From positions 1 to 64,000 of the forward strand of contig JAOULC010000006.1 in assembly GCA_029882215.1 (NCBI GenBank): a stretch of DNA of 64,000 nucleotides. The letters run 5' to 3'. Position 1 is the first letter of the stretch, and each line of letters begins with the position of its first letter. The DNA comes from Gammaproteobacteria bacterium (GTDB lineage: Bacteria > Pseudomonadota > Gammaproteobacteria > SZUA-229). Both the position numbers and the translations under genes were made by a program. This document shows positions 16,494 to 49,118 of this stretch, piece after piece. The notes beneath the pieces are model-generated. The model saw only the letters and a list, made by a program, of their open reading frames with translations. It ran no database searches and was not told the DNA's origin.

Positions 16494-17159
16494 ATGATAA
16501 GCACTGTTTTATTTGATCTCGACGGTACTCTGGTTGATACCGCACCTGACATGGCACACTCCCTGAACCTGCTACTTACGGAACAGGGTGAAGAAGCATT
16601 ACCCCACGCCATTATTCGCCCGCATGTTTCCAATGGCAGCGAAGCGCTGGTGACACTGGGGTTTGGTGATGCACTTGAAAATACTCGTCTGCAGCAATTA
16701 AAAAAGCGCTACCTGGAAATCTATCAGACAAATATTCATATTCAATCCTGCCTGTTTCCCGGCATGGACAAGCTGCTTGAAAAAATTGAAGAAGCCGGTA
16801 AGCAGTGGGGCGTCGTCACCAACAAGCCGTCCTGGTTAACCGAGCCATTACTCATATCAATGGGGTTAGCCACAAGAAGCGCCTGCATGGTGAGCGGTGA
16901 CACCACCTCGCAAAGGAAGCCTCATCCGGAACCGATGTACCACGCCTGTCAACTGATTGGTGTTGATAGTACAGAATGTATTTATATCGGTGATGCTAGA
17001 CGCGATATAGAAGCCGGCAATAACGCCAATATGAAAACCATTATCGCTACTTATGGCTATATTGCTGAATGGGAGGACATGTCGACATGGGGTGCAGATG
17101 CGCTGATTGATGAACCTTGTGAGATTTTACAACACTGCGGTTTAAGTAGCGCTAACTAA
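16494..17159 (+). CDS. mupP: HAD-superfamily phosphatase, probably MupP (N-acetylmuramic acid 6-phosphate phosphatase)
   Basis: The 221-residue haloacid dehalogenase-type phosphatase has motif I FDLDGTLVDTAPD, motif II VVTNKP and motif IV YIGDARRDIEAGNNA. By sequence alone it could be a phosphoglycolate phosphatase (Gph). In Pseudomonas, however, the gene immediately after ubiG, near mtaD and mtnA, is mupP. That enzyme dephosphorylates MurNAc-6-phosphate in the AmgK-MurU cell-wall recycling route and underlies fosfomycin tolerance. The matching gene order favours MupP. amgK and murU are not in this window. Its last 8 bases overlap the convergent glycosyltransferase gene. Confidence 0.72.
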   Translation: MISTVLFDLDGTLVDTAPDMAHSLNLLLTEQGEEALPHAIIRPHVSNGSEALVTLGFGDALENTRLQQLKKRYLEIYQTNIHIQSCLFPGMDKLLEKIEEAGKQWGVVTNKPSWLTEPLLISMGLATRSACMVSGDTTSQRKPHPEPMYHACQLIGVDSTECIYIGDARRDIEAGNNANMKTIIATYGYIAEWEDMSTWGADALIDEPCEILQHCGLSSAN

Positions 17160-32841: not shown

Positions 32842-35022
32842 TTAATAATCCCCTTTCAATGCCGCTTTTAACTGCTTTCTGCGGCGATGCAAAGTCGGCT
32901 CGGTATAACCGTTCGGTACACGTCTACCATGGAAGATCATATCCTGAGCAGTTTGAAACGCCAGACTGATATAATGTGGCCCCATAGAAATATAGTTAGG
33001 CACACCAATATTCTGCCGGTCAACAAACTCTGCCATACGCTTTAGCGATACCATTACCTGCTTTTCACTAACCACTCCATGATATAGCCAGTTAGCAATA
33101 TGCTGACTGGAAATACGCAATGTAGCCCGGTCTTCCATCAGACCAATATCATTTATATCAGGCACTTTAGAAGCACCCATTCCCTGATCTATCCAGCGCA
33201 CAACATAACCCAGTAAACCCTGCATATTATTATCCAGTTCCTGCTGAATTTCCTCTGCACTCCAGTTAACGGATGTGGCCAGCGGAATTGTAAGCAAGTC
33301 ATCAATGCTTGCTCGCTCACGCTGCATAATTTCTTTTTGTTTATCCGCCACACAAACCTGATGATAATGAATAGCATGCAATGTCGCAGCCGTCGGTGAA
33401 GGCACCCATGCTGTGTTGGCACCGGCTTCGGGGTGAATGCGTTTTTTCTCCATCATTTCACTCATCAGATCCGGCATAGTCCACATACCTTTACCAATTT
33501 GTGCCTTGCCTGCCAGACCACATGCCAGACCAATATCGACATTCCAGTTTTCATAGGCTTTTAACCAGGGTTCAGCCTTCATGTCATCTTTACGCACCAT
33601 AGCACCCGCTTCCATCGAGGTGTGTATTTCATCACCGGTGCGATCGAGGAAACCGGTATTAATAAAAATGACACGTTCACTGGCCGCGCGTATACACTCT
33701 TTTAAGTTGAGTGTGGTACGGCGTTCTTCATCCATAATGCCGACTTTAATTGTGTTTCTCTCCAGACCAAATGCATTTTCAATTTTTTCAAAAAGGCTGA
33801 CGGTGAATGCCACTTCTTCCGGCCCGTGCATTTTTGGTTTAACAATATAAATATTTCCTTTACGACTGTTTTGATAAGGACTGTTTTGTTTCAGGTCATG
33901 TAATGCACAGTAACTGGTTATAAAACTATCCAGCAAGCCCTCATGGATTTCAACACCTTTAGCATCCAGTACAGCACCGGTCGTCATCAGGTGACCCACG
34001 TTTCTTATTAACATCAGACTACGCGCAGGCACTTCAAAGAAACTACCGTCAGCCGATAAATAACGGCGGTTAGGTTGCAACGAACGCTTGACCTGTGTGC
34101 CCTTTTTATTAAAAGAAACCGACAGGTCTCCTTTCATTAATCCAAGCCAGTTACGATAGACTTTTACTTTATCAGAGGCATCAACAGCGGCAACAGAATC
34201 TTCACAGTCCATGATGGTTGAAATTGCTGACTCTAAATAAATATCACGAATTCCGGTAGGGTGAAGTTCATGGATCGGATGATCGGTATTGAAATGAATT
34301 TCAATGTAAAGATTATTATTACTTAATAGTAGCGATGAAATTTTACCGTCAGTTTCCTGATAGCCTTTAAATTGTTCAGGATTTTTCAGCCCGGTACGCT
34401 GTCCACTGGACAAGGTAACAGACAACTGGCCATCTTTCATTTTATAAGCGATGGCATCAATATAACTGCCATCCTGTAACGGTGCCGCTTCATCCAGGAA
34501 GGCTTTCGCATAGGCAATGACTTTTGCACCACGAACCGGATTAAAGTTTGCACCTTTATGGGCACCGTTATCTTCTGCTATAACATCGGTGCCATATAAA
34601 GCATCAAATAAACTTCCCCAGCGGGCATTAGCCGCATTTAGTGCATAACGTGCATTACTAACCGGTACGACTAACTGCGGGCCAGCTATATTGGCAATTT
34701 CTTCGTCTATATTATCTGTGGTGATAGAAAAATCATCACCCTCTTCCAGCAAATAACCGATTTCTTTCAGATAGGCCTTGTAAGCAGCGTAATCAATATT
34801 TTCATTCTTATGCTCAAGATGCCATGCATCTATTCTGGCCTGCAGCTCATCCCGACGAGCCAGCAACGCGCGGTTTTTTGTGCTCATTTCAGTCAGTATT
34901 TGTGCGAAGCTATGCCACGCATCATCACATTGAATACCTGTTCCCGGTGAAATCTCGTTTTTTACAAGATCATAAAGTGGTTTAGCAATTTGCAATCCTG
35001 CAATATTGACGAGTTCAGTCAT
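32842..35022 (-). CDS. glcB: Malate synthase G
   Basis: The 726-residue TIM-barrel enzyme condenses glyoxylate with acetyl-CoA to malate. Landmarks are [56 protein letters not shown] and [10 protein letters not shown]. Full length for the G isoform. No isocitrate lyase is in the window, so glyoxylate more likely comes from glycolate or from cleavage of a sugar acid. It is the last gene before the hydratase/lutABC/TRAP island and is transcribed toward deaD. A role with the island is inferred from proximity. Confidence 0.96.
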
Positions 35023-35162: not shown

Positions 35163-35879
35163 TTATTTGATATTAACCCGGAGCATTCCAAGCGGTGCCA
35201 GTGAAACCTCAACCCGATCGCCGGGAAATACCTGCACCGGTATGGTAATGGAACCACAAATAACCCACTCACCTGCCACTATGCACTGATTTTGTTTAGC
35301 CAGTGTGTCGGCAACCACGGATACCAGCTCGCTAAAGTCTAGCGGGTAACGAGATGCATCACCGCTCTGCACAAGCTGTTGATTAACATGCACAGTGGCA
35401 TCAATGTGTTGCACAAGTAAATCAGGGTGGTCACAATTCAGATCGCCAATCAGCACCGCTTCATGAAAAACATTACCCTCAAGAATAGAAGTAATATCGT
35501 GCGGCGTTCTGGCGGCATCAACAATTTCAATGGCCGCGGCAAAACCTTTAATAGCACTTTTTAATTGTTCTTTATTTTCACCAGATGAAATATCACGACC
35601 AATTAAAATGGCCACTTCTGCTTCCAGCATCACTTTAGCGCCATCATTTGCTTTGTATGCACCGCCGGAATTGATAACTGTCTCACTGGTTAAAAAGCCA
35701 ACAACAGGAGATGATAATTTCATACGCTGCTGATCAGCCAGAGGTGTAAAACCCAGTTTCCAGCCAACGCGTTTAGCCCCGCCAGCAAGTACATCTGTCC
35801 ATTTTTGTAGCTGAACACTCATCGCCTGATGCAGTATTTCTTCGTTAATAAGGTCATTCTTTTGTGCTAAGTCAGTCAT
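35163..35879 (-). CDS. MhpD/FAH-fold 2-keto acid hydratase or decarboxylase
   Basis: The 238-residue protein resembles 2-oxopent-4-enoate hydratases and 4-oxalocrotonate decarboxylases: VGWKLGFTPLADQQRMKLSSP, the metal-binding EAEVAILIGRD, FAAAIEIVDAART and a C-terminal GDRVEVSLAPLGMLRV. Family members act on 2-keto-enoates made by meta-cleavage or from deoxy sugar acids. No aromatic ring-cleavage genes are nearby, so the substrate may be a 2-keto-3-deoxy acid linked to the sugar-acid island; this is inference. It lies 140 bases upstream of glcB on the same strand and is divergent from lutA. Confidence 0.75.
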   Translation of the reverse strand: MTDLAQKNDLINEEILHQAMSVQLQKWTDVLAGGAKRVGWKLGFTPLADQQRMKLSSPVVGFLTSETVINSGGAYKANDGAKVMLEAEVAILIGRDISSGENKEQLKSAIKGFAAAIEIVDAARTPHDITSILEGNVFHEAVLIGDLNCDHPDLLVQHIDATVHVNQQLVQSGDASRYPLDFSELVSVVADTLAKQNQCIVAGEWVICGSITIPVQVFPGDRVEVSLAPLGMLRVNIK

Positions 35880-35995: not shown

Positions 35996-36772
35996 ATGCG
36001 TGTTGCTTTATTCGCCAGTTGCCTGGTTGACTTATTTCGTCCTAATGCAGGATTTGCTACTGTATCGTTACTGGAGAATGCAGGCTGCATCGTTGACGTT
36101 CCGCCGGAACAAACCTGTTGTGGCCAGCCAGCCTATAATAACGGCGACAAAGATAATGCCCGTGATATTGCTAAACAAGTCATAAATGAATTTAGCGATT
36201 ACGAATACATCATTGTGCCATCAAGCTCCTGCGCCGGAATGATGATAAAGCACTATCCGCAACTTTTCGAGGATAATGCAGAGTGGTACAAAAAAGCAAC
36301 GGATTTTTCTGCGCACTGCTACGACCTTGTGACGTTTTTACATGACATTCTTAAAATCACGTCAGTGCCCGTCACTTATCAGGGTAATATCACTTACCAT
36401 GATTCGTGCTCATCATTGCGTGAAACTCGCGTTAAAGATAAAACCCGTCATTTACTTGCCTGTAATGAAAAAATTAATTTATTAGAGCTCGGTAATCCTG
36501 AAGCATGCTGCGGCTTCGGCGGTACATTCTGTGTTAAGTATCCTGAAATATCGGAGTCAATGGTAAACGATAAGATCGCTGATATCGAAGCGACCGGTGC
36601 TGACACAGTAGTTTCCGGTGACATGGGTTGCTTATTAAATATTGCGGGCCGTCTAAAAAGGCTCAATAAACCGATAAAAGTTTTTCACATTGCGGAAGTG
36701 CTGGCCGGTATGACCGGCATTGCAGCGATTGGTGATGCCGACGATACAAAAAAAAGTGAGCCATCATCATGA
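35996..36772 (+). CDS. lutA: L-lactate utilisation protein LutA (LldE), Cys-rich
   Basis: The 258-residue protein has two CCG domains: PPEQTCCGQPAYNNGD with the upstream cysteine, and YHDSCSSLRE with EACCGFGGTFC. These bind Fe-S clusters in heterodisulfide-reductase-like subunits. LutABC oxidises L-lactate to pyruvate in Bacillus and many proteobacteria. The stop overlaps the lutB start as ATGA. Here the operon sits among sugar-acid genes and could instead oxidise another 2-hydroxy acid. Confidence 0.92.
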   Translation: MRVALFASCLVDLFRPNAGFATVSLLENAGCIVDVPPEQTCCGQPAYNNGDKDNARDIAKQVINEFSDYEYIIVPSSSCAGMMIKHYPQLFEDNAEWYKKATDFSAHCYDLVTFLHDILKITSVPVTYQGNITYHDSCSSLRETRVKDKTRHLLACNEKINLLELGNPEACCGFGGTFCVKYPEISESMVNDKIADIEATGADTVVSGDMGCLLNIAGRLKRLNKPIKVFHIAEVLAGMTGIAAIGDADDTKKSEPSS

Positions 36773-38208
36773 AATCAAAATCTCATGCTTTTAAGCAGCA
36801 AGCAGCTGATGCATTAGTCAACGTCTCGTTGCAAAAAGCTCTGCTAAATGCAAAAGACGGTTTTATTGTCAAACGCAAAAAAGCCATGGATGAACTACCC
36901 GAGTTTGAGCGTCTGCGTACAAAAGCCATCGAAATAAAAGAGCACACACTGTCACACCTTGATCAGTACCTGGAATATTTTGAACAGCAGGTAATAAAAA
37001 GTGGCGGCACGGTTCACTGGGCCAGCACCACGACACAGGCTCAGCAAATCATCGTTGAGCTTTGCAAACAGGCAAACGCCCGTACCGTTACTAAAGGCAA
37101 ATCAATGGTTGGTGAAGAGGCCGCCATTAATGACGCGCTGGAAGCGGCCGGCTTTGAAGCCATTGAAACGGATTTGGGTGAATACATTATTCAGCTGGCT
37201 AACGAGCCACCAAGCCACATCATTGCGCCGGCAATACATAAGAGCAAACAGGAAATTGCCGATCTGTTTAAAGATCACCATAAAAAATATAATTTTAACA
37301 GCAAGCTGGAAACCATCCCGGAAATTGTCAATGAAGCACGCGAGGTACTGCGTGAAAAGTTTATTAATGCCGATGTCGGTATCACAGGGGCTAACTTTTT
37401 AGTGGCCGAAACCGGCTCAACACTTATCGTCACAAACGAAGGCAACGGCGATCTGACAGCAACACTGCCAAAAACACATATTGTCATATCCAGCATTGAA
37501 AAAGTGGTGCCCACACTGGAAGACACCTCTGTGTTGCTGCGTTTATTAGCACGCAGTGCAACCGGTCAGGAAATCACCTCCTACACTACTTTTTTTAACG
37601 GCCCGAAAAGAAACAGCGATATTGACGGCCCTGAAAATTTCCACGTAGTATTACTGGATAATGGTCGCAGCAACATGCTGCAAAATGAAAACCACGAAAT
37701 GTTAAAATGTATTCACTGTGGCGCCTGTCTGAACCACTGCCCTGTTTATAGTGCCATTGGCGGTCATGCTTATGGCTGGGTTTATCCGGGCCCGATGGGT
37801 TCCGTACTGACGCCTATTATGCAGGGCCTTGATGAAGCAAAAGATTTACCTTTTGCCTCCACTTTCTGTGGCCGCTGCGAAGAAGTCTGCCCATTATCAA
37901 TACCTCTGCCCAAATTATTGCGACAACATCGCAACCACATTCATCACGATAAACTCAATACATCACGCTCGCGACTTGGTCTGGCACTATGGGCATTTGT
38001 CGCCAGTCGCCCCGCTCTATACCGCCCATTGAGCAACAGCTTTATCAGAGCACTTGGCTGGCTGGGTAAAAAATCAGGCCGCTTCTCATGGCTACCCTTT
38101 GCTTCAGCCTGGACACAGTCAAAAGATTTACCGGCACCGGCAGCACAAAGTTTTATGTCGGCCTGGACTCAACAACAAGCAAAAAAGAAGAGCTCTGAAA
38201 ATGAATAA
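36769..38208 (+). CDS. lutB: L-lactate utilisation iron-sulfur protein LutB (LldF)
   Basis: The 479-residue protein has an LUD domain (about 70-300, with TGANFLVAETGSTLIVTNEGN split by position) and two ferredoxin-type clusters, CIHCGACLNHCPVY and CGRCEEVCPLSIPLPK, near residues 310-380. It is the electron-transfer subunit of LutABC. The C-terminal LutB domain is present (ASAWTQSKDLPAPA). It overlaps lutA by 4 bases and lutC by 8, a tight operon. Confidence 0.94.
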   Translation: MKSKSHAFKQQAADALVNVSLQKALLNAKDGFIVKRKKAMDELPEFERLRTKAIEIKEHTLSHLDQYLEYFEQQVIKSGGTVHWASTTTQAQQIIVELCKQANARTVTKGKSMVGEEAAINDALEAAGFEAIETDLGEYIIQLANEPPSHIIAPAIHKSKQEIADLFKDHHKKYNFNSKLETIPEIVNEAREVLREKFINADVGITGANFLVAETGSTLIVTNEGNGDLTATLPKTHIVISSIEKVVPTLEDTSVLLRLLARSATGQEITSYTTFFNGPKRNSDIDGPENFHVVLLDNGRSNMLQNENHEMLKCIHCGACLNHCPVYSAIGGHAYGWVYPGPMGSVLTPIMQGLDEAKDLPFASTFCGRCEEVCPLSIPLPKLLRQHRNHIHHDKLNTSRSRLGLALWAFVASRPALYRPLSNSFIRALGWLGKKSGRFSWLPFASAWTQSKDLPAPAAQSFMSAWTQQQAKKKSSENE

Positions 38209-38857
38209 TGCACGCGAAGAAATCTTCAACAGAATCAAAAGTAAAACCAGACAAAACGGTCAGGATGCAGCCAGCATTATTGAACGCAGGCTGTCAGCTC
38301 ACCAGCGCGGACCGGTGCCGGTATTTCCTGAAGAGTTGCTGGAACGTTTTATATTAAAACTTAAGAATGTTGTCGGTACGGTTAAAGAAATCAGCGATAT
38401 GTCAGAACTACCGGCGGCTGTTTCTGAATATTTATCATCGCTTAATGTGGAACAGAAAATAGTGACGGCTGTGCCTGAGATTCACAGCCTTAACTGGCCT
38501 GCAGATTTTGAAGTAAATAACCGCGCAGCCATTTCCAGTGATCTTTCCTCGGTTACCATGGCCTATGCTGCGGTGGCTGAAACCGGCACGCTTGTTCTGC
38601 AAGCGGCCAAAGAGACGCCAACCAGTTTAAACTTTTTACCCGATAATTTTATTTGTGTACTCAAGCAGCAAGATATTCATACCTCGATGGAAGATATCTG
38701 GGATGCTATTCGCAAAGACGACAAAGGCATGCCTCGTGTCGTCAATTTTATTACCGGGCCGTCACGTACCGCAGATGTCGAACAAACCATACAGCTTGGT
38801 GCGCATGGTCCGCGATACCTGCATGTGATTATTATCAGGCAAGCTGGCTCTGATTAG
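38201..38857 (+). CDS. lutC: L-lactate utilisation protein LutC (LldG)
   Basis: The ATG at 38201 gives MNNAREEIFNRIKSKTRQ, the family start, 8 bases inside the lutB end with GAAGAG upstream. The 218-residue LUD-domain protein has AYAAVAETGTLVL, PDNFICVLKQQDI and FITGPSRTADVEQTIQLGAHGP. It completes lutABC. Its last 23 bases overlap the convergent iclR gene. No lactate permease is adjacent, but a TRAP transporter lies downstream in the island. Confidence 0.93.
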   Translation: MNNAREEIFNRIKSKTRQNGQDAASIIERRLSAHQRGPVPVFPEELLERFILKLKNVVGTVKEISDMSELPAAVSEYLSSLNVEQKIVTAVPEIHSLNWPADFEVNNRAAISSDLSSVTMAYAAVAETGTLVLQAAKETPTSLNFLPDNFICVLKQQDIHTSMEDIWDAIRKDDKGMPRVVNFITGPSRTADVEQTIQLGAHGPRYLHVIIIRQAGSD

Positions 38858-39620
38858 CGGCCGGCTTCTTGCCGTAATACCCCAGGCTCTCTGACAACTG
38901 CCTGCCAGCCTCAATTACGATAGGCACCCATTCTTCTTTACGACGATCAATAGGTGCCGATATTGATAAACCTCCGGCAATATCACCGGTATTATTGTGT
39001 ATCAGCACACCAATACAACCCACCCCTAACTCCGCCTCTTCGTCATCGTAGGCAAAGCCATTAAGCTGTGCCTGCTGAGAGCGGATAATTAAATCATCGA
39101 TGTCTGTGATGGTGTTTTTTGTATATTCCGGCAAACCGGTTCTGGTGGCGTATTTACGGCACTCTTCCTCACCAGCCTCTGCCAGCATCAGTTTACCAAC
39201 AGCCGTTACGTGTAACGGCGCACGGCTACCAATAATCTGCTGCACGCGTATCATTTGTACACTGATTGAGCGTTCTACGTATATAACTTCATCATTTTCA
39301 CGGATTGTCAGGTTAACCGTTTCACCCAAAGCATCACGCAATTTTCTCATGATCGGTTTTGCCTGATGTCGCAAGCCCACACGTTGCCTTACATGCGATC
39401 CAAGGTGCAATAATTTAATACCCAGACGGTAATGACCGGCCTCGTCTCTTTCAACATACTGATTGTCCACCAATGAACCAAGAATACGAAATGCGGTAGA
39501 CGGGTGCAGCTCACTTTCTGCTGAGAGTATTTTCAAACTAACTGTGTCGTCATATCGGGCAATGATATTTAATAATAGTGCTGCCCGGTCAATAACTTGA
39601 ATCGCCGATTTCTTTATCAT
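38835..39620 (-). CDS. IclR-family transcriptional regulator
   Basis: The 261-residue protein has an N-terminal winged helix (VIDRAALLLNIIARYD, LHPSTAFRILGSLVDNQYV) and the IclR effector domain (LRDALGETVNLTIRENDEVIYVE, GKLMLAEA, GVGCIGVLIHN). IclR regulators typically control adjacent catabolic genes in response to a small carboxylate. It is divergent from the phosphoketolase-like gene, and three copies of a shared element lie between them, so it probably controls both itself and the TPP enzyme, kinase, aldolase and transporter genes. Confidence 0.93.
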   Translation of the reverse strand: MIKKSAIQVIDRAALLLNIIARYDDTVSLKILSAESELHPSTAFRILGSLVDNQYVERDEAGHYRLGIKLLHLGSHVRQRVGLRHQAKPIMRKLRDALGETVNLTIRENDEVIYVERSISVQMIRVQQIIGSRAPLHVTAVGKLMLAEAGEEECRKYATRTGLPEYTKNTITDIDDLIIRSQQAQLNGFAYDDEEAELGVGCIGVLIHNNTGDIAGGLSISAPIDRRKEEWVPIVIEAGRQLSESLGYYGKKPAANQSQLA

Positions 39621-39633
39621 ACCTTCCCCATTT

Positions 39634-39881
39634 CATAATACGATAACGATTGCGTATCGTGATATTACATATCATACATTATCTTTCTGGCTGTTCCAGT
39701 CATTTACGCCTATATAAATGTACAGGAACTCTTTCTTCGTTCTCGCATTATGAAAACGATTACGTATTGTGAAATACTGTATCTTATTTTATTCTACATG
39801 TGTTCCCAAAACCAAGTTAAAAATCGACAAGGAACTTTTACGCACTTTTCATATTGTGAAAACGATTATGGATTGTGAAAT
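39634..39881. promoter_or_regulatory. Three operator-like repeats between iclR and the phosphoketolase-like gene
   Basis: Three 24-base elements run in the same orientation at 39642-39665, 39752-39775 and 39858-39881. They share AACGATT followed by a GT-rich middle and GTGA[TA]AT. Copies 2 and 3 are each preceded by TGAA. Copy 1 has inverted arms ACGATA and TATCGT. Spacings are 110 and 106 bases, close to whole helical turns apart. I saw no further copy upstream of lutA, glcB or dctP. The 343-base gap has no gene; short frames in it overlap the repeats. Confidence 0.72.
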
Positions 39882-39963
39882 TCAACTACATGTTTTAAGG
39901 TTATACCTGCGAAAAATCAGGTCCAACCCGTACGGCAAACCTCGTACAGTTAGGAGATAATTG

Positions 39964-42183
39964 ATGAGTACAGACAACGTATCACAAGCAACAACCGCAC
40001 CTTCATTTTGTGAAGGTATCCAGCACTATGGCGATGCATGGCCTCAATATAGTGAAAAGGCTACAACGGCTGTTATTGCAGATGGTCAGAGTGCTGTCAG
40101 CGACTGTACTACTCCGGAAGCTGTATTTCAGACTCAGTTAATGGCTGATGCCCTGCGCTACCTGACCCTACAGGTTTGTGGTTCTAAAGGCTCCGGTCAT
40201 CCGGGTGGTTTTGCATCAAGCGCTGACGCTTATGCATCGCTGGTTATGTTAGGCCACACCAATATCGTTACCGAGGTAGGTCATCACGCACCTGGCTTTT
40301 ACAGCGCAATGTTCCTTGATACTTCTTTACAAGAAATGGGCATTAACACCGTTTCTGATATGCACACACGCTTTCGTGAACGCGAAGGTCTGCTAGGTCA
40401 CTTATCTGGCGCAGTTCCTGGCCTGCTGGCTCCTGCAGGTCCATTAGGACAAGGTCAGCACTTTGCGATGGCCGGTGCTCTGTTACACCCTGATAAATTA
40501 TTCCCGTTCACAATGGGTGATGGTGGTATGGGCGAACCGTACATCCTGTCAGCCATGATGCACTTCAACACCGCATACCCTGAGTCAACTAACTTCCTGC
40601 CAACATTAGTATGGAATGGTTACAGTCAGGAACATCATTCAATGGTTTCACGTATGACCAATGAAGAGATGACAAACTACTGGACAGGCCACGGCTTTAA
40701 AGAAGTGGTTATTGTTGATGCTAAAGAATTTGATGATGCAAATCAGGAAGGTGCTTATGTGGATAGCACTCAGTTCTCATTTGAAAATCGTCTGAAATTC
40801 AGCCAGGCAATGCTTGAAGGTACAAACAAAGCAGCAACTTCTGCAATGAACGGTACATTAACTGTACTGATCATCAAGCAATTAAAAGGTGCCGGCGTTC
40901 ATGCACTAGGTGCTAAGTCACATAACTTATACCCTGCTGACACTTTAGATCAGCCACATATTATTGCCGGTTTACAGCGTCGTGCGCTTAACCCGGATGC
41001 ATGGCAAATTGTACGTGATAATTTCTCACGCGCAGGTGGTGGTCCGGCTGTTAAAACCTCTGTTACCGAACATGTTCTTGAACTCACGCCGTTACCAAAA
41101 TTACCGGCACAAGAATTTAGCAAAGAAGAAAAAGCCGTTCCGGCTACTGCAATGGGCGCATTAGTTGCCGCTGTTGGCCAAATCGACAAACGTTACGTGG
41201 TTTGTAATGCCGACGGTAATGAAGCATCTGCAATGAAGAACATTAATGATGCATTAAAAATTCGTCACCCGACTGTTGATCCGCTTTATAACCAGGAGCC
41301 AAACGGTCAGGTTTACGAGCCATTAAATGAAGATGCCTGTGCCGGTCTTGCGGCTGGTCTGTCATTATTCGGATCACGTGCGATCTGGTTATCGTATGAA
41401 AGCTTTGCCATCAACGGCTGGCCAATTGTTCAGACTGTTACTCAGGCAATGGCTGAACTGCGTCGTAAAACACCGTCTGTTGTCAGCATGTTTACAGCAG
41501 GTGCACTGGAGCAGGGCCGTAACGGCTGGACTCATCAGCGCCCTGAAATTGAAAACTTTTTTGCCGGTATGATGCGTAATGGTAATGTTTACCCGTTATT
41601 CCCTTGCGATGCGAACTCTATTCAGGTGGCTTATGAATGGGCAACGAACACCTACAACAAAGGCATGGTGATTATTGCTTCTAAGAGCCCGTTACCCGTT
41701 TACATGACACTTGAAGAATCTTTGCATGCAATCGAAGTGGGTGCGGCAACAATTTACGAAAGTCAGTCAGGTGATAAAGGTACGATAGTCTTTGCAGTCA
41801 CAGGTGACATGGTATTCCTGCCAGTGTTTGAAGCAAAAGACCAGCTTGAAGCCGATGGTTATCGTGTACGTATTGTTGCGGTTGTAAACCCTCGCCGTTT
41901 ATATCGCCCGACGGATGTTGCATGGGATACGGTATCAGAGCCGGATAACACATTTATGGACGATGATCACTTTAACGCCCTGTTTGACGCCGATATTTTA
42001 TTCGCCGTCAGTGGTGGCCCAAGTGCTCCATTAGAGCCTGTTGTATTACGTACTCGTGCTGCAAAACGTGACACTTTCTGCTGGAAGCGCGGTGAAACCA
42101 CTGCCTCTCCAACAGAGATCATGAACTTCAACGGCATTACTGCTGAAGCCATGTGTAACCGCGTTAAAACGTTCACTAAATAA
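39964..42183 (+). CDS. Divergent phosphoketolase-like thiamine diphosphate enzyme
   Basis: The ATG at 39964 lies 7 bases after a GGAG site; a TTG one codon earlier is less likely. The 739-residue protein has a transketolase-like SGHPGG at 77-82 and the ThDP/metal motif GDGG at 185 with Asn218 in NGYS. The C-terminal half matches phosphoketolases: GQVYEPLNEDACAGLAAGLS, LSYESFAINGWPIVQ, and NGWTHQRPEIENF, which parallels the NGFSHQDPG of known enzymes. It is 50 to 90 residues shorter than xylulose-5-phosphate phosphoketolases and carries GDGGMGE instead of GDGEAETG, so its substrate is probably different. A product such as acetyl phosphate from a ketose phosphate or glycolaldehyde is inferred. 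It heads the kinase-aldolase-TRAP cluster. Confidence 0.8.
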   Translation: MSTDNVSQATTAPSFCEGIQHYGDAWPQYSEKATTAVIADGQSAVSDCTTPEAVFQTQLMADALRYLTLQVCGSKGSGHPGGFASSADAYASLVMLGHTNIVTEVGHHAPGFYSAMFLDTSLQEMGINTVSDMHTRFREREGLLGHLSGAVPGLLAPAGPLGQGQHFAMAGALLHPDKLFPFTMGDGGMGEPYILSAMMHFNTAYPESTNFLPTLVWNGYSQEHHSMVSRMTNEEMTNYWTGHGFKEVVIVDAKEFDDANQEGAYVDSTQFSFENRLKFSQAMLEGTNKAATSAMNGTLTVLIIKQLKGAGVHALGAKSHNLYPADTLDQPHIIAGLQRRALNPDAWQIVRDNFSRAGGGPAVKTSVTEHVLELTPLPKLPAQEFSKEEKAVPATAMGALVAAVGQIDKRYVVCNADGNEASAMKNINDALKIRHPTVDPLYNQEPNGQVYEPLNEDACAGLAAGLSLFGSRAIWLSYESFAINGWPIVQTVTQAMAELRRKTPSVVSMFTAGALEQGRNGWTHQRPEIENFFAGMMRNGNVYPLFPCDANSIQVAYEWATNTYNKGMVIIASKSPLPVYMTLEESLHAIEVGAATIYESQSGDKGTIVFAVTGDMVFLPVFEAKDQLEADGYRVRIVAVVNPRRLYRPTDVAWDTVSEPDNTFMDDDHFNALFDADILFAVSGGPSAPLEPVVLRTRAAKRDTFCWKRGETTASPTEIMNFNGITAEAMCNRVKTFTK

Positions 42184-42299: not shown

Positions 42300-43622
42300 A
42301 TGAATAATACAAAAATAATTGTTTTAGATGACGATCCAACCGGCTCACAAACTGTTCATAGCTGTTTGTTAGTCACCCGCTGGGATGTTGATACATTGCG
42401 TGAAGCAATGCTTGACTCAGCCCCGCTGTTTTTCGTGCTGACAAACACTCGCGGTATGGATGCAGAAAATGCAGCCAGTATTACCCGCGATGTGTGCCAG
42501 AATGTTCAGATCGTCCTCAACGAATTAAAAGACAAGGGTCAGATTATTAACCCGATTCTTGTTAGTCGCTCCGATTCAACTCTGCGTGGCCACTACCCCG
42601 TCGAGACAGATGTAATTGCCGATGAGTTAGGTCCGTTCGACGCGCACTTTCTGGTGCCTGCTTTCTTTGAAGGAGGTCGCATCACGCGTGACAGCATTCA
42701 TTACCTGATCGTTGACGGTAAAGAAATACCGGTACATGAAACCGAATTTGCCAATGATTCTGTTTTCGGTTATTCACACAGTTATTTACCGGACTATGTA
42801 GAAGAAAAAACAACCGGCAAAATCAAAGCCGGTCAGGTAGAACGCTTTTTGCTAGATGATGTACGCGGTGACTGCATGGACCGCTTATTAAATTTACAGG
42901 GCAATGTCTGCTGCGCAGTTGACAGTGAAACACAGGCTGATCTGAATCATTTTGCCAGCCAGCTGACAGCCGCCGCTGCACAGGGCAAACGCTTTTTATT
43001 CCGTAGTGCAGCCAGTTTATTAACATCACTTGCTAATTTACCGGCGCAACCGGTTGCGGCTGAATCTATGTCTGATTATGTTAGAGGCGGCAAAGCCGGC
43101 GCTATCATTGTCGGCTCTCATGTTAAAAAGACAACACAACAACTGGGGCATCTTCTGAAACAAGAAGGCATCTATGCACTGGAAGTCGATGTGCAGAGAA
43201 TTGCTACTGAACGTGCATCATTACTTGAAGAAGTCATCAATCAGGCAAACGACGCACACAGCAAAAACTTAACAATGGTTGTGTATACCAGCCGCGTTGA
43301 AAAAGTATTTGCCGATCAGCAAACCCGTCTGGCATTTGGTGAAGAAGTCTCAGCTTTCTTAATGGATGTTGTACGTAACTTACCGACGACTCTGGGCTTT
43401 CTTATCAGCAAGGGCGGCATTACATCGAACGATGTACTGAGCAGTGGTTTAGCCCTGCGAACATCCCGCGTTGTTGGCCAGATTTTAGCCGGCTGCTCTG
43501 TTGTCTGCTGCCCTGCCGACCATCCGCGTTATGCTGATATGCCGGTAGTTATTTTCCCCGGCAATGTCGGTGATGATGAGGCACTTGCCACCGCCTATAA
43601 ACGCCTTGCTAAGAAGGATTGA
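42300..43622 (+). CDS. DUF1537 four-carbon acid sugar kinase family protein
   Basis: The 440-residue protein has the N-terminal DDDPTGSQTVHS, SRSDSTLRGHYPVE substrate motif and the C-terminal nucleotide-binding GFLISKGGITSNDVLSSGL. Characterised relatives (OtnK, DtnK) phosphorylate D-erythronate, L-threonate or related acids at C4 with ATP. The usual partner PdxA2 or OtnC is absent; instead a class II ketose-bisphosphate-type aldolase gene follows after 3 bases. This points to a different acid or ketose substrate that is phosphorylated and then cleaved. Confidence 0.88.
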   Translation: MNNTKIIVLDDDPTGSQTVHSCLLVTRWDVDTLREAMLDSAPLFFVLTNTRGMDAENAASITRDVCQNVQIVLNELKDKGQIINPILVSRSDSTLRGHYPVETDVIADELGPFDAHFLVPAFFEGGRITRDSIHYLIVDGKEIPVHETEFANDSVFGYSHSYLPDYVEEKTTGKIKAGQVERFLLDDVRGDCMDRLLNLQGNVCCAVDSETQADLNHFASQLTAAAAQGKRFLFRSAASLLTSLANLPAQPVAAESMSDYVRGGKAGAIIVGSHVKKTTQQLGHLLKQEGIYALEVDVQRIATERASLLEEVINQANDAHSKNLTMVVYTSRVEKVFADQQTRLAFGEEVSAFLMDVVRNLPTTLGFLISKGGITSNDVLSSGLALRTSRVVGQILAGCSVVCCPADHPRYADMPVVIFPGNVGDDEALATAYKRLAKKD

Positions 43623-43625
43623 GCC

Positions 43626-44474
43626 ATGATTAATAATCTCGCTCAGGTATTAAAACTCCAGTCGCAGTCAGCGGCTGGTTCTTTCAATATACTTGATCTT
43701 GATATGGCATTTAGTATTTTAGACAGTGCCGAAGAGTTACAATTACCCGTCATCATTGGTATTGCCAGTCGTCACTTTGATGACATACGCGCACCGCTAT
43801 TAGTACCCTCAATTTTAAAAGCAATGGAAACTGCAACAATCCCTGTTGCATTACATCTTGATCATGCTGCTCCCGATCAGCTAGAGATGATTCAAAAAGC
43901 ACTTGATTTAGGTTTCACCAGTATCATGATTGACGGCTCTCTTTTGCCACTATGTGAAAACATCGCGGTCACTCAGAAAGTGGTTGAGCTTAGCCACAGC
44001 TACAATGCAAGCGTTGAAGGCGAAATTGGCGGTATTGCCGGTGAAGAAGGTGTCGCTGATACCGATCAGGATGCACCGGAAGAAACACCTTATACTAATG
44101 TTGCTGAAGCACAACAATTTATTAATGAAACATCAGTGGATGCACTCGCCATTGCTGTTGGCACTGCTCATGGTATATACAACTGTGAGCCGCATATTAA
44201 TTTTGATGTGATCAAAGAAATTTCAGCAATAACTAATATTCCTCTGGTAATGCACGGCGCTACCGGAGTTTCAGATAAAGCAATACAAATTGCTGTCGAA
44301 AATGGCATCAGAAAAATAAATTATTTTTCTGGTTTATTACAAACCGCCATGAATGAAGTCAGACTCTGTAATACAACGAGTAATGATTATTTAAGCTTTA
44401 AACGTACAATTTCTAACCAATGGAGCAGTGCTATTACAGAACAAATGAAATTATTTTCTAATCTGAGTAAATAA
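43626..44474 (+). CDS. Class II ketose-bisphosphate aldolase family protein
   Basis: The 282-residue TIM-barrel protein resembles GatY/KbaY and class II fructose-bisphosphate aldolases: VALHLDHAAPDQLEMIQKAL (catalytic Asp and zinc His), SIMIDGSLLP, SVEGEIGGIAGEE, AVGTAHGIY and VMHGATGVSD (zinc His residues). It should cleave a phosphorylated ketose or keto acid to DHAP or a related ketone and an aldehyde. It lies 3 bases after the DUF1537 kinase, so it probably acts on that kinase's product or a derivative. The aldehyde partner could be glycolaldehyde or glyoxylate, linking to the phosphoketolase-like enzyme and GlcB; this is inference. Confidence 0.85.
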   Translation: MINNLAQVLKLQSQSAAGSFNILDLDMAFSILDSAEELQLPVIIGIASRHFDDIRAPLLVPSILKAMETATIPVALHLDHAAPDQLEMIQKALDLGFTSIMIDGSLLPLCENIAVTQKVVELSHSYNASVEGEIGGIAGEEGVADTDQDAPEETPYTNVAEAQQFINETSVDALAIAVGTAHGIYNCEPHINFDVIKEISAITNIPLVMHGATGVSDKAIQIAVENGIRKINYFSGLLQTAMNEVRLCNTTSNDYLSFKRTISNQWSSAITEQMKLFSNLSK

Positions 44475-44588: not shown

Positions 44589-45731
44589 ATGAAAGAGGAT
44601 AAGAAGTCAGTCATTATCACGGACGGTGGTAAAAAAGCCACTAATCGTCGCGATTTCATTAAATCAGCGGCCGCAGTCGGCGGAACAGCAATCTTAGGCG
44701 CACCTATGATTGCAAACGCAAAAGCGAAAAGCCAGACCTGGAAAATTCAGACGACCTGGGATGCCGGTACAACTGGTTACACTCTGTTCGAAGAATGGTG
44801 TAATGGTTTTGCGGAAAAGTCAAACGGCGAACTGAAAGTTAAACCTTTCGCAGCTAAATCAGTTGCAGCTGATAACAATGCATTATTTGAAGCTGTTAAA
44901 ACTGGTGTATTACAAGGTATGAACCCGTTTACTTTGTACTGGGCTGGTAAAATTCCTGCAACAGTATTCCTGTCATCATACCCTGCCGGTCCTGACCAGC
45001 CATCGCAGTGGGACACAATGTTCTACGGTCTTGGCATGTTAGAAATGGCACGTAAGATCTATGCTAAGCAAGGTCTGGTTTATGTTGGTCCGATTCACCA
45101 TGATGCAAATATCATCCACTCTAAAAAGCCATTAAACAGCTTAAAAGATTTCGATGGTCTGAAACTACGTGTTCCAGGCGGCATGGTATCTGAAGTATTC
45201 CAGGCATTCGGTGCGAGCACTGTAAGTATTCCTGGTTCAGACATCTTCCCTGCTCTTGAAAAAGGCACAATCGATGCAGCTGACTACGTTGGCCCTGCGG
45301 TAAACTGGGATCTTGGCTTTGGTCAGGTAACTAACAACATTATGTTTGGACCTCCGGGCATGATGTCTATTTACCAGGCAGTTGACGTAATGGATCTGAC
45401 TGTTAACCAGCGTGCATGGAACCGTCTGTCTCCAGCAATGAAGTCAATGGTTGAAGAGCAGGTTAAATCTTACTCACTGAAGCATTACACTACTATTCAG
45501 AAGCGTAATGTTGATGCACTGGTTAAGTTCAAAGATTCAGGCAGTGTTGTAAACCGCCTGAGTGCAGAAGACGTAGCAGAATGGCGTCGTAAAGCGATTC
45601 CAATCTGGTACAAATGGGCTAACAAAGATGCAGACTCGAAAGCTGTTTTCAAACTGCAACTTGATTATATGACTAACGACATTATGGGTTATTTAACACC
45701 AGAAGATCTTAAAGGTCATTCACTTAAGTAA
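44589..45731 (+). CDS. dctP: TRAP transporter substrate-binding protein DctP, Tat-type signal
   Basis: The 380-residue protein has a twin-arginine signal (TNRRDFIKSAAAVGG, Arg20-Arg21), so it is likely exported folded, and the DctP fold (WKIQTTWDAG, LKDFDGLKLRVPGGMVSEVF, the carboxylate-binding Arg in LRVPG, and AADYVGPAVNWDLGF). Residues such as WDLGF and YVGP resemble binders of small keto or hydroxy carboxylates. A GAGGAGT site precedes the ATG, and an imperfect hairpin (44535-44559) sits just upstream. It is the first gene of dctPQM and follows the aldolase by 114 bases. Confidence 0.93.
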   Translation: MKEDKKSVIITDGGKKATNRRDFIKSAAAVGGTAILGAPMIANAKAKSQTWKIQTTWDAGTTGYTLFEEWCNGFAEKSNGELKVKPFAAKSVAADNNALFEAVKTGVLQGMNPFTLYWAGKIPATVFLSSYPAGPDQPSQWDTMFYGLGMLEMARKIYAKQGLVYVGPIHHDANIIHSKKPLNSLKDFDGLKLRVPGGMVSEVFQAFGASTVSIPGSDIFPALEKGTIDAADYVGPAVNWDLGFGQVTNNIMFGPPGMMSIYQAVDVMDLTVNQRAWNRLSPAMKSMVEEQVKSYSLKHYTTIQKRNVDALVKFKDSGSVVNRLSAEDVAEWRRKAIPIWYKWANKDADSKAVFKLQLDYMTNDIMGYLTPEDLKGHSLK

Positions 45732-45815: not shown

Positions 45816-46514
45816 ATGAGTGAATTACAAGGCTTCGGTTTTGTCGTACCACACTGGGCGTACTGGAGCTGGCTAGCTTTGATGCCACTGGTGTTGATGT
45901 ACCTGATAAAACGTAACGCATCGAATACAGTTGAAGTTCCGCTGACCCCCGATGAGGAACTTGCGCTTGAATTATTAGCTCAGGAAGACCCTACACATAC
46001 AATTGAAGGCAACGCTGTTACCAAAATCATTGACAAAATCAGTGAATTTACCGGTGTTTTTATCGCTTTCTGGACCGTAACTGCCGTTGTTGCATACTTC
46101 TATGAAGTGGTAATGCGTTATTTGTTTAATATGCCAACAATTTGGGTTCACGAATCCTCTTTCTTGTTATTTGGTATGCAATATTTAATGACAGGTGCAT
46201 ACGCCATGCTTCATGGTGCTCATGTACGTGTTGATATAATGTACATTAAATTACCACCGCGTGGCCGCGTTGGTATGGATATCTTTACTTCTGTATTTTT
46301 CTTTATCTTTGTCCTCGCACTGATGGGTACATCATGGACATTCTTTATCAGTTCTTTTGAAATGGGTGAGATTTCTCTTGAGACATGGGGTATCCAGTAC
46401 TGGCCTGTTAAATTACTGATGTTTGTTGGTGCGTGTCTGCTGACACTGGCCGGCATCTCAAAATTAATAAAAGATATTATGTTATATCGTCTAATGGGCG
46501 AGGGTAAACAATAA
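45816..46514 (+). CDS. dctQ: TRAP transporter small membrane subunit DctQ
   Basis: The 232-residue protein has an extra N-terminal membrane segment (WAYWSWLALMPLVLMYLI) and a soluble acidic stretch, followed by the four helices of DctQ (FIAFWTVTAVVAYFYEVVMRY, WVHESSFLLFGMQYLMTGAY in part, HVRVDIMY). It is about 50 residues longer than typical DctQ, as in the large-TRAP group. TTGGAGA lies upstream of the ATG. The stop overlaps dctM by one base. Confidence 0.9.
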   Translation: MSELQGFGFVVPHWAYWSWLALMPLVLMYLIKRNASNTVEVPLTPDEELALELLAQEDPTHTIEGNAVTKIIDKISEFTGVFIAFWTVTAVVAYFYEVVMRYLFNMPTIWVHESSFLLFGMQYLMTGAYAMLHGAHVRVDIMYIKLPPRGRVGMDIFTSVFFFIFVLALMGTSWTFFISSFEMGEISLETWGIQYWPVKLLMFVGACLLTLAGISKLIKDIMLYRLMGEGKQ

Positions 46515-48055
46515 TGAATACTGCTGTTACTAATAGCCAAAATACTGGTAAGTTTGATACCAGTAAATTGTGGACCTGGATATTAATCCTGGCCACAGCA
46601 AGCTTAAGCTTCGCTGTTATCGTTGAATTAATTAATATTGTTTTCTACGATCCTTACGAAGAAGAATATTTTCTTTTCCGTACTGCCGGTATGCTGGCTG
46701 ATATGGACATCAGTGGTCTGACCTGGGTCATGTTTGGCACCCTGTTCGTTGCTCTGATGCTGGGGCTGCCACTGGCGTTTGTTACCGGTGGTCTGGGTGT
46801 TGTTTTCGTCTATCTGGTCGGTGATCAGACAATGCTGAATATCATCCCAAGCCGTATTTTCCCAATGATGACCAACTCGGATCTGGCCGCTATACCGCTG
46901 TTTATCTTTATGGCATCTATGCTGGAACGCGCTGGCCTGATTGAAGAAATGTTTGACGTGGTTTACAAATGGATGGGCGGCCTGAATGGTGGCCTTGCTG
47001 CAGCAACCATTCTTGCATCGACTATCCTTGCTGCGATGGTGGGTGTTATCGGTGCCGCCGTTGTTACCATGGGTATCATCGCATTACCGGCTATGCTGAA
47101 GCGCGGGTACAATCATGAAATCGCACTGGGTTCGATTATGGCCGGTGGTACCTTAGGTATCCTGATTCCGCCATCAATTCTGGCTATTCTTTATGCGGTT
47201 GTAGCACAACAATCTGTTGGTGAGCTGTATCTGGGTTCTATCCTGCCGGGTATCCTGTTATCCAGCATGTATATCTTCTATGTATTATTTCGTTCATGGA
47301 GAAACCCTGACTTAGGGCCTGCAATTCCAAAAGAAGAACGTCTTAGCTTGCTACAGAAACTGATACTGCTACGTCAGTTGATAGCGCCTTTAATTTTAGT
47401 CTTTACCGTTTTAGGTTTACTGTTTGGTGGTATTGCAACACCGGTTGAAGCGGCAGGTATCGGTTCATTTGGTGCCATTGTAGTGGCTATGATGCATGGC
47501 CGTTTCAGCCTGAAAGGTTTGCAAGACGCCTCAGTAAGTACTGCTAAAGCATCAGCAATGGTATTATGGATTATCTTCGGTGCCTCTATCTTCGTAGGTT
47601 TTTATATCTTACAAGGTGGCCAGGCGTTCATCACTGAAACCATTTTAAGTACCGGTCTGTCATCATACGGTATTCTGTTCTTGATGATGGTTTTACTGGT
47701 TATTCTGGGTATGTTCCTGGACTGGGTTGGTATCTTATTACTGGCTGTGCCTATCTTTGTACCGATTATTAAGTCATTAACGTTTGACGGACTGTTTGGT
47801 TTACCACCGGTTCCGGGTGACAAAGTCGCGTTATGGTTTGGTGTACTTTACTTAGTGAACATGCAGATGTCATTCATCAGCCCGCCATTCGGTTATGCAC
47901 TGTTCTACTTACGCGGTGTTTGTCCGCCAGAAATCAGTATGGCAACAATCTTCAGATCTGCACTGATCTTCCTCGGCTTACAAACTGTTGGCTTAATACT
48001 ATGTGTTCTTCTTCCTGGCATCGTAACTTTCTTACCTAGCCTGGTATATGGGTAA
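46514..48055 (+). CDS. dctM: TRAP transporter large membrane subunit DctM
   Basis: The 513-residue polytopic protein has the DctM domain: AAIPLFIFMASMLERAGL, GGLNGGLAAATILASTILAAM, AGGTLGILIPPSILAILYA, GGIATPVEAAGIGSFGAI and the C-terminal ISPPFGYALFYLRGV, each given as a landmark. It forms the ion-coupled channel with DctQ. Typical DctM is about 430 residues; this is of the longer type with an extra N-terminal segment. A strong terminator follows, closing the transporter operon. Confidence 0.93.
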   Translation: MNTAVTNSQNTGKFDTSKLWTWILILATASLSFAVIVELINIVFYDPYEEEYFLFRTAGMLADMDISGLTWVMFGTLFVALMLGLPLAFVTGGLGVVFVYLVGDQTMLNIIPSRIFPMMTNSDLAAIPLFIFMASMLERAGLIEEMFDVVYKWMGGLNGGLAAATILASTILAAMVGVIGAAVVTMGIIALPAMLKRGYNHEIALGSIMAGGTLGILIPPSILAILYAVVAQQSVGELYLGSILPGILLSSMYIFYVLFRSWRNPDLGPAIPKEERLSLLQKLILLRQLIAPLILVFTVLGLLFGGIATPVEAAGIGSFGAIVVAMMHGRFSLKGLQDASVSTAKASAMVLWIIFGASIFVGFYILQGGQAFITETILSTGLSSYGILFLMMVLLVILGMFLDWVGILLLAVPIFVPIIKSLTFDGLFGLPPVPGDKVALWFGVLYLVNMQMSFISPPFGYALFYLRGVCPPEISMATIFRSALIFLGLQTVGLILCVLLPGIVTFLPSLVYG

Positions 48056-48230: not shown

Positions 48231-49118
48231 ATGAATATTGGTTTTATTGGTTTAGGTATTATGGGTCGCCCCATGTCTTTAAACTTATTAAAGGCAGGCC
48301 ATAAGGTACATGTTCACGCCCGTCGTGCTGAAATGATGAGCGCACTTTCGGATGCTGGCGCAACAGCCTGTGCCAGTATCTCAGAGCTCGCCGCTCAGTC
48401 AGATATTATTTTCATTTGTGTTTCAGATACAAAAGACGTTGAACAGGTCATCTTAGGTGACAACTGTATTCTTAGTGCGATTAAAAAAGACAGTGTTGTG
48501 GTCGACATGAGTACCATCTCTCCATCGGCAACAAGATCACTGGCAAAAACTTTAGCAGCGCACCAGTGCCACATGTTAGACGCACCGGTTTCCGGTGGCG
48601 AACAAGGCGCTATTGATGGCACACTTTCTATCATGGTCGGCGGAGAAGAAGCTATATTTAACCGTGTCTTACCGTTATTTGAAGCCATGGGAAAAAACAT
48701 TGTTCATATTGGTAGTAACGGTGCAGGTCAGGTTACAAAAACCTGTAATCAGGTTGTCATCGGTCAGGCCATAGCCGCTATTGGTGAAGCTTTTGTGCTG
48801 GCATCGGCATCCGGTGTTGATCCTGCAAAAGTCAGGCAGGCACTGCTGGGTGGTTTTGCCGGCAGTCGTGCACTGGAGTCACATGGCCAGCGTATGCTGG
48901 ACAGAAATTTCAAACCGGGATTTAAAGCACACCTGCATCAAAAAGACATGCGCATTGCGATGGAAACTGCGCATGAACTGGGTCTGGCCTTACCTGGAGC
49001 CGCTCAGGTAACACAGTATTTAAATGCTGTGGTCGGGCAAGGTAAAGGGGAGAATGACTCTATCTCCATACTCGAGCTACAGGAGCAACTTTCAGGTATC
49101 ACCGTTAAAAGTGAATAG
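48231..49118 (+). CDS. GarR-type 2-hydroxy-3-oxopropionate reductase / beta-hydroxyacid dehydrogenase
   Basis: The 295-residue protein has the Rossmann motif GFIGLGIMGRPMSLNLLKAG, DAPVSGGEQGAIDGTLSIM substrate loop and the catalytic lysine in GQVTKTCNQVV. It is close to tartronate semialdehyde reductase (GarR) and the related 3-hydroxyisobutyrate and threonate (LtnD) dehydrogenases. In the DUF1537 pathways LtnD-type enzymes oxidise the acid before phosphorylation. Here it follows dctM after a terminator but is on the same strand, so it could be the first oxidation or a final reduction to glycerate. I cannot choose between them from sequence. Confidence 0.85.
   Translation: MNIGFIGLGIMGRPMSLNLLKAGHKVHVHARRAEMMSALSDAGATACASISELAAQSDIIFICVSDTKDVEQVILGDNCILSAIKKDSVVVDMSTISPSATRSLAKTLAAHQCHMLDAPVSGGEQGAIDGTLSIMVGGEEAIFNRVLPLFEAMGKNIVHIGSNGAGQVTKTCNQVVIGQAIAAIGEAFVLASASGVDPAKVRQALLGGFAGSRALESHGQRMLDRNFKPGFKAHLHQKDMRIAMETAHELGLALPGAAQVTQYLNAVVGQGKGENDSISILELQEQLSGITVKSE

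Follow-up and report, generated by a model that had tools for sequence, protein, structure and literature searches.

Which reaction is carried out by a thiamine-diphosphate enzyme that combines motifs of transketolase (TK) with motifs of phosphoketolase (XFP), and in which pathway would it work? The question is raised by one gene in the window, the whole stretch of 64,000 nucleotides analyzed here:

39964-42183, + strand: XFP-like thiamine-diphosphate enzyme of a separate subfamily (739 aa; assigned from domains, homologue alignment and tree)

A preliminary description had read the protein as intermediate between TK and XFP, as a separate subfamily and as having an altered substrate pocket. 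The gene neighbors, overlooked there, hold most of the meaning, and we propose that the enzyme probably starts an undescribed recycling of the glyoxylate that arises from the oxygen side-reaction of RuBisCO. No published description of the enzyme or of the module was found in the open-licence PubMed Central literature, and a recent report elsewhere is possible.

Family placement and active site

The open reading frame is intact and encodes 739 aa from an ATG, with an in-frame TTG at 39961, one codon upstream. The motifs named in the preliminary description are all located in it, namely the TK-like SGHPGG (residues 77-82), GDGGMGE (185-191) and the phosphoketolase-like GQVYEPLNEDACAG (448-461) and NGWTHQRPEIENF (520-532). 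The majority of their positions are invariant among 21 homologues, and the resemblance is not due to chance. The protein is also shorter than XFPs, as had been claimed, with 739 aa against 778-863 aa in the sampled canonical XFPs and 785-845 aa in XFP PDB chains. When the profile search proposed at that stage was run, the Pfam models XFP (46.2 bits) and XFP_N (42.5 bits) exceeded their cut-offs and were matched in 21 of 21 members, Transket_pyr matched the enzyme at 31 bits, and XFP_C stayed below its cut-off (21.3 versus 23.4 bits, with 10 of 21 members matching at E 0.001). Scores were likewise below the NCBIfam cut-offs for phosphoketolase (at most 115 bits versus 777 for the best-matching model), for the transketolase models (at most 51 versus 488) and for the TIGR00232 transketolase equivalog (36.2 versus 682). 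The closest solved structure is the XFP of B. breve (3ahc, E 5e-24).

The subfamily is highly conserved, with 64-87% identity across beta-, gamma- and zetaproteobacteria, and its identity distribution is bimodal: full-length relatives lie at 65-86%, and the next group, canonical XFPs, aligns only in part, at about 26-31%. In the window's order, 17 of 54 genomes had relatives of 70-80% identity (counting the window genome, with a few hits cut by contig ends), and in its class 33 of 369 genomes had relatives of 65-86%. The searched viral contigs contained no relatives, and the searched plasmids gave matches to canonical XFPs alone, at 22-24% identity. A 4.2-kb contig of a record titled Campylobacterota (L117) bears a copy of 72% identity, which probably reflects faulty binning.

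In a maximum-likelihood tree with a DXS outgroup (without the DXS row L210, which was in the wrong frame), 18 canonical XFPs, including B. breve, proteobacterial, cyanobacterial and lactobacillar sequences, form a single clade (100/100) that leaves the new family outside. This family is a clade of its own (89/90), in agreement with the earlier suggestion of a separate subfamily, and joins XFP at 100/99, with TK outside both; since the inner branches are long, the reading rests on clade membership and not on branch lengths. Placement within the canonical XFP clade with all substrate residues kept, which the preliminary description had named as the result that would speak against it, was not observed, and canonical XFP membership is ruled out by tree placement and cut-offs. 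Profile scores reach 70-124 bits for XFP versus at most 37 for TK, hhalign gives 99% for XFP versus 13% for TK (single-sequence targets), and the predicted fold appears closer to XFP (Z 38) than to TK (Z 31). By tree, profile, hhalign and fold, the family is thus on the XFP side of TK, and an intermediate position holds for the motifs (TK-like SGHPGG and GPLGQG; XFP-like Q517, N520 and K574) and not for ancestry and fold. Since it failed tests of some defining features of both families, we assign the enzyme to neither XFP nor TK. From its sequence, it is expected to work like a member of the XFP/TK superfamily.

With the B. breve XFP the enzyme shares the fold, the domain order and the catalytic His/Glu set, at about 18% identity over the structural alignment and with a chain 40-120 residues shorter. 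The kept residues, in B. breve numbering, are H64, H97, H142, H320, H553, E479, Q546, N549, K605 and Y501 (in the window, in the same order, H79, H107, H146, H320, H524, E456, Q517, N520, K574 and Y478), and the first seven of these are invariant in 21 of 21 members. With TK it shares, besides the two Gly-containing motifs, the catalytic His/Glu positions and the Ser of the SNLT segment. Because the catalytic His/Glu set is fully kept, ketol chemistry is plausible.

Other positions are altered. XFP H548 and D555 are replaced by invariant Arg residues (R519 and R526) that could bind a carboxylate, XFP GGELG has become GPLGQG and GDGEAETG has become GDGGMGEP. The XFP S440-R442 segment is changed in the family and R442 is without a conserved Arg counterpart, in a region where the alignment register is ambiguous; H548 and R442 are residues that we take to form the XFP phosphate site. 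The counterparts of yeast TK R359 and H469, which contact the donor phosphate, are small residues in the enzyme, and S422 and K574 remain. Changed residues at sites that XFP and TK otherwise conserve, together with the altered phosphate-contact region, thus lend partial support to the altered substrate pocket of the preliminary description. The pattern supports thiamine-diphosphate ketol chemistry with a changed recognition of the other substrate, with residues alone not naming the substrates. Because the active-site loops 139-160 and 513-528 have low confidence in the AlphaFold model, the pocket was not read from it.

Gene neighborhood and operator

The following features surround the enzyme gene in the window (scores are given with cut-offs where these apply):

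32842-35022, - strand: malate synthase G, a further enzyme that consumes glyoxylate (TIGR01345, 1085 bits versus 989)
35996-36772, + strand: LutA (profile matches)
36769-38208, + strand: LutB (TIGR00273, 489 bits versus 445)
38201-38857, + strand: LutC, LUD domain (PF02589, 89 bits; start at an internal ATG of the ORF 38054-38857)
38835-39620, - strand: divergent IclR-family regulator (best curated model BhcR, 172 bits, below the cut-off of 350)
39637-39666, + strand: operator copy 1 (26.0 bits)
39747-39776, + strand: operator copy 2, ATTATGAAAACGATTACGTATTGTGAAATA (47.5 bits)
39853-39882, + strand: operator copy 3 (43.4 bits)
42300-43622, + strand: DUF1537 (SBD_N plus NBD_C) four-carbon acid-sugar kinase (SBD_N 190.5 bits, NBD_C 131.7 bits)
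43626-44474, + strand: class II aldolase (F_bP_aldolase), candidate oxo-tetronate-4-phosphate decarboxylase (PF01116, 243 bits)
44589-45731, + strand: TRAP substrate-binding subunit of DctP type with TAT signal (TRAP_S1, 80.6 bits versus 50)
45816-46514, + strand: TRAP small membrane subunit (position and family membership across loci)
46514-48055, + strand: TRAP large membrane subunit (dctM, 286 bits versus 268)
48231-49118, + strand: accessory beta-hydroxyacid dehydrogenase of tartronate-semialdehyde reductase type (TIGR01505, 353 bits versus 340.75)

We compared 111 loci (30 from genomes, 80 from named records and the window, with some contigs entered by both routes), and all neighbor counts are minima because contig ends hide some neighbors. 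The enzyme gene is accompanied by a DUF1537 kinase in 106 of these and by a divergent IclR gene in 99, followed by GlcD (60), GlcF (56) and GlcE (55), TRAP substrate-binding genes (14), LutABC (11), a class II aldolase (10, eight at 58-100% identity and two weak ones at 31-34%) and a dehydrogenase of tartronate-semialdehyde reductase type (9). Five loci, the window among them, have a linked malate synthase G, and a malate synthase A-like gene is present at L047. The linked GlcE and GlcF score above the NCBI cut-offs and GlcD just below. At the window locus LutABC replaces the linked GlcDEF, and glycolate oxidase is encoded unlinked, on contig C22; the same genome has a RuBisCO large subunit gene (799 bits versus 438) that adjoins a CbbR-like regulator.

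The kinase is distant from characterized DUF1537 members. The window protein does not reach the D-threonate kinase equivalog cut-off (NF047819, 69 versus 450 bits), and against the PDB it matched no entry as a single sequence and 4xfr alone as a profile (27 bits). The XFP-like gene of one locus (L126, from Candidatus Nitrotoga sp. M5) adjoins two matches to the DUF1537 kinase.

Several further genes were seen close to the operon. Six loci of Gallionella and related iron oxidizers (L072, L073, L077, L084, L087 and L106) have a GlcG-like gene (HbpS domain) on the other strand, and downstream of their operon lie an aldehyde-dehydrogenase-like gene and genes for a branched-chain-type ABC transporter, an arrangement that possibly serves glycolate uptake. 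At L066, L067, L078 and L085 an aminotransferase nearest to BhcA and pyridoxamine-pyruvate models lies close to the operon and may transaminate glyoxylate. In the window, a 2-oxo-hex-3-enedioate decarboxylase/hydratase-like protein (35163-35879, - strand) adjoins malate synthase G, as it does in three near relatives, and glycolate could come from a predicted HAD-family hydrolase (16494-17159, + strand) that resembles phosphoglycolate phosphatase (Gph) and whose gene neighbors that of a UbiG-like methyltransferase.

The intergenic region between the IclR and enzyme genes contains a 30-bp element (consensus ATTGTGAAAACGATTnTGTATTGTGAAATa) in 84 of 92 cases, almost unchanged across beta-, gamma- and zetaproteobacteria, a conservation that is unusually strong for a local transcription-factor site. 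In 1.68 Mb of carrier loci, the operator matrix exceeded 18 bits at 147 sites, whereas column-permuted matrices gave no such match and the 427 kb of control loci gave none either; because the matrix was trained on the same regions, these controls bear on specificity and are not an independent discovery. Among the few sites beyond the intergenic region, one precedes the TRAP genes of L047. The unlinked GlcDEF and RuBisCO loci searched are without the element, and the regulator therefore appears dedicated to the enzyme operon. BhcR, IclR and AllR, which are regulators of glyoxylate metabolism, are among the curated families nearest to the window IclR protein, and from this kinship it probably senses glyoxylate. 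The likeness to BhcR and the glyoxylate theme recall the beta-hydroxyaspartate cycle, from which the locus differs in that the regulator scores below the BhcR cut-off and that no bhcABCD genes were seen in the window operon.

Carriers and their glyoxylate-consuming enzymes

Named carriers include Gallionella, Sideroxydans, Thiobacillus, Sulfuriferula, Acidithiobacillus, Halothiobacillus, Mariprofundus, Nitrotoga, Thiogranum, Sedimenticola and Thiosymbion, groups known as Calvin-cycle lithoautotrophs. In the class sample of 369 genomes (33 carriers and 336 non-carriers), RuBisCO is found in 176 and GlcE in 187, and among the carriers each is found in 32 of 33, with GlcE in 30 of 30 carriers that are at least 90% complete. 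Both genes occur together in 31 of 33 carriers versus 93 of 336 non-carriers (Fisher, P = 3.6e-14), and within RuBisCO genomes GlcE is found in 31 of 32 carriers versus 93 of 144 others (P = 8e-5), in tests that ignore shared ancestry and on genomes that are spread over many families. The two carriers that do not combine both genes (G086 and G260) are 86-87% complete.

At the threshold used, none of the 33 carriers has glyoxylate carboligase (Gcl, TIGR01504), which occurs in 4 of the 369 genomes of the class sample. Malate synthase is present in 9 of 33 carriers, and taken together these counts leave 23 carriers that have GlcE and neither glyoxylate route. An OtnC decarboxylase, searched for in the 33 carriers, was not found above cut-off. 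The 93 genomes with RuBisCO and GlcE that are without the enzyme gene indicate that the module is one solution among several. Nearly all of these 93 are also without glyoxylate carboligase.

A candidate route for glyoxylate salvage

Very probably, the enzyme, kinase and regulator, usually with GlcDEF, form a phosphoglycolate-salvage module of RuBisCO lithoautotrophs. We give about an even chance to the central reaction, in which the XFP-like enzyme would move a C2 ketol unit onto glyoxylate. Equally balanced, in our estimate, is the larger proposal of a previously undescribed natural photorespiratory route, in which glyoxylate would receive a ketol unit from the Calvin cycle and, after phosphorylation by the DUF1537 kinase and decarboxylation, yield dihydroxyacetone phosphate (DHAP). 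The 2-phosphoglycolate made by RuBisCO oxygenation would be dephosphorylated to glycolate by a phosphatase and then oxidized to glyoxylate by GlcDEF, for which the genes are observed and a flux is presumed. On thiamine diphosphate, the XFP-like enzyme would cleave a ketose phosphate (xylulose-5-P, fructose-6-P or sedoheptulose-7-P) and pass the ketol unit to glyoxylate instead of forming acetyl phosphate, presumably giving 3-oxo-tetronate (2,4-dihydroxy-3-oxobutanoate) and a shortened aldose phosphate. The kinase would phosphorylate the 4-hydroxyl of 3-oxo-tetronate, and decarboxylation to DHAP and CO2 would follow, catalyzed by the linked F_bP_aldolase at loci that have it; elsewhere a housekeeping class II aldolase would act, or the step would be spontaneous. 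With a Calvin-cycle ketose phosphate as donor, both products, DHAP and the aldose phosphate, would return to the Calvin cycle. The IclR protein would switch the operon at the shared 30-bp operator, probably on glyoxylate.

We infer donor, acceptor, product, decarboxylation and effector from genes, conservation, co-occurrence, operator and catalytic residues. The ketose-phosphate donor is not assured, with two TK donor-phosphate contacts lost and S422 and K574 remaining, and decarboxylation is the weakest step because OtnC is below cut-off in the carriers and few loci have a linked aldolase. 3-Oxo-tetronate belongs to the compounds on which DUF1537 kinases act, at C4, and its 4-phosphate is decarboxylated to DHAP. 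The pair DUF1537 plus F_bP_aldolase is known to lead from oxo-tetronate to DHAP (Guo 2024, cited in PMC12540250). The F_bP_aldolase enzyme 2-OtnC acts on the 2-oxo isomer, and the 3-oxo version has an Aldolase_II protein instead; the gene directly 3' of the window kinase has an F_bP_aldolase domain, as 2-OtnC does (PMC12540250). The locus thus shares this adjoining pair with the threonate/erythronate cassette (LtnD, DUF1537 OtnK and F_bP_aldolase 2-OtnC), whose substrate class includes a product of the proposed reaction. It differs in that the four-carbon acid would come from glyoxylate via a thiamine enzyme, that aldolase and dehydrogenase are usually absent from the loci, and that the kinase is far from curated kinases. 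In Cupriavidus necator, too, glycolate oxidase feeds glyoxylate in a RuBisCO lithoautotroph; its glyoxylate-consuming enzymes are others, however, namely the glycerate pathway with Gcl and the malate cycle, whereas the carriers are without Gcl and a minority have malate synthase. Loss of gcl-hyi-tsr together with aceB abolishes the growth of C. necator as an autotroph in air (PMC7486775).

Four other readings were weighed against this transfer from a ketose phosphate to glyoxylate. If the enzyme were a true phosphoketolase, ketose phosphate and Pi would give acetyl phosphate and then acetyl-CoA, which malate synthase would join to glyoxylate. The nearest relatives are XFPs by sequence, profile and fold, and the window and four other loci of the 111 carry a linked malate synthase G, with the A-like gene in L047. 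We nevertheless regard this as unlikely: malate synthase is found in 9 of 33 carriers only, which makes the acetyl-phosphate route unlikely as a general function, and it is absent (0%) from RuBisCO-bearing Acidithiobacillales and Halothiobacillales (PMC7486775, Table 1). Moreover, the enzyme has other residues in place of XFP H548 and D555 and a divergent S440-R442 segment, the near-universal kinase would go unexplained, and a canonical XFP is additionally present in some carriers. The lack of Gcl in carriers would fit an alternative glyoxylate carboligase, which would decarboxylate glyoxylate and add the C1 unit to a second glyoxylate, the resulting tartronate semialdehyde then being reduced and phosphorylated. 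The new invariant Arg residues suit carboxylates, and the corresponding reductase is linked in 9 of 111 loci, the window among them; across the 33 carriers, though, it is above cut-off in 5 and was not found at 1e-60 in 18, near-complete genomes included, and its absence from most carriers makes the tartronate-semialdehyde route unlikely. With DUF1537 members acting, as far as known, on four-carbon acids, and glyoxylate decarboxylation not being normal for TK/XFP enzymes, we find the carboligase quite improbable.

A catabolism of imported four-carbon sugar acids (threonate or erythronate), in which the enzyme would split 3-oxo-tetronate into glyoxylate and acetyl phosphate, is suggested by the window operon itself, where the TRAP importer, an LtnD-superfamily dehydrogenase, DUF1537 and F_bP_aldolase make up the threonate-catabolism domain set. 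These extras are rare across the loci, however (TRAP 14, aldolase 10 and dehydrogenase 9 of 111), the constant partners are glycolate oxidase and autotrophy, and the dehydrogenase matches tartronate-semialdehyde reductase with 353 bits, compared with 179 bits for threonate dehydrogenase; we consider this reading very unlikely. The loss of two TK donor-phosphate contacts and the gain of two Arg residues would also agree with ketol transfer to glyoxylate from a non-phosphorylated donor, e.g., hydroxypyruvate, but most loci are without a linked hydroxypyruvate source and the phosphate site is partly kept by S422 and K574, which leaves such a donor rather doubtful.

Any aerobe that fixes CO2 with RuBisCO must handle 2-phosphoglycolate. 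Phosphoglycolate salvage in chemolithoautotrophs was described as uncharacterized in a 2020 study of C. necator (PMC7486775), and a 2021 genome comparison reported that known photorespiration genes are little enriched in non-cyanobacterial Calvin-cycle genomes, with glycolate oxidase being rare and the photorespiratory signature not clear (PMC7895386). If the proposed route of ketol transfer to glyoxylate is true, the module would fill this photorespiration gap in many iron-, sulfur- and nitrite-oxidizing bacteria, being spread over such oxidizers among the beta-, gamma- and zetaproteobacteria. The route would cost one ATP and would work without ammonia cycling and without reductant, and it could then be of use in engineering as a short photorespiratory bypass.
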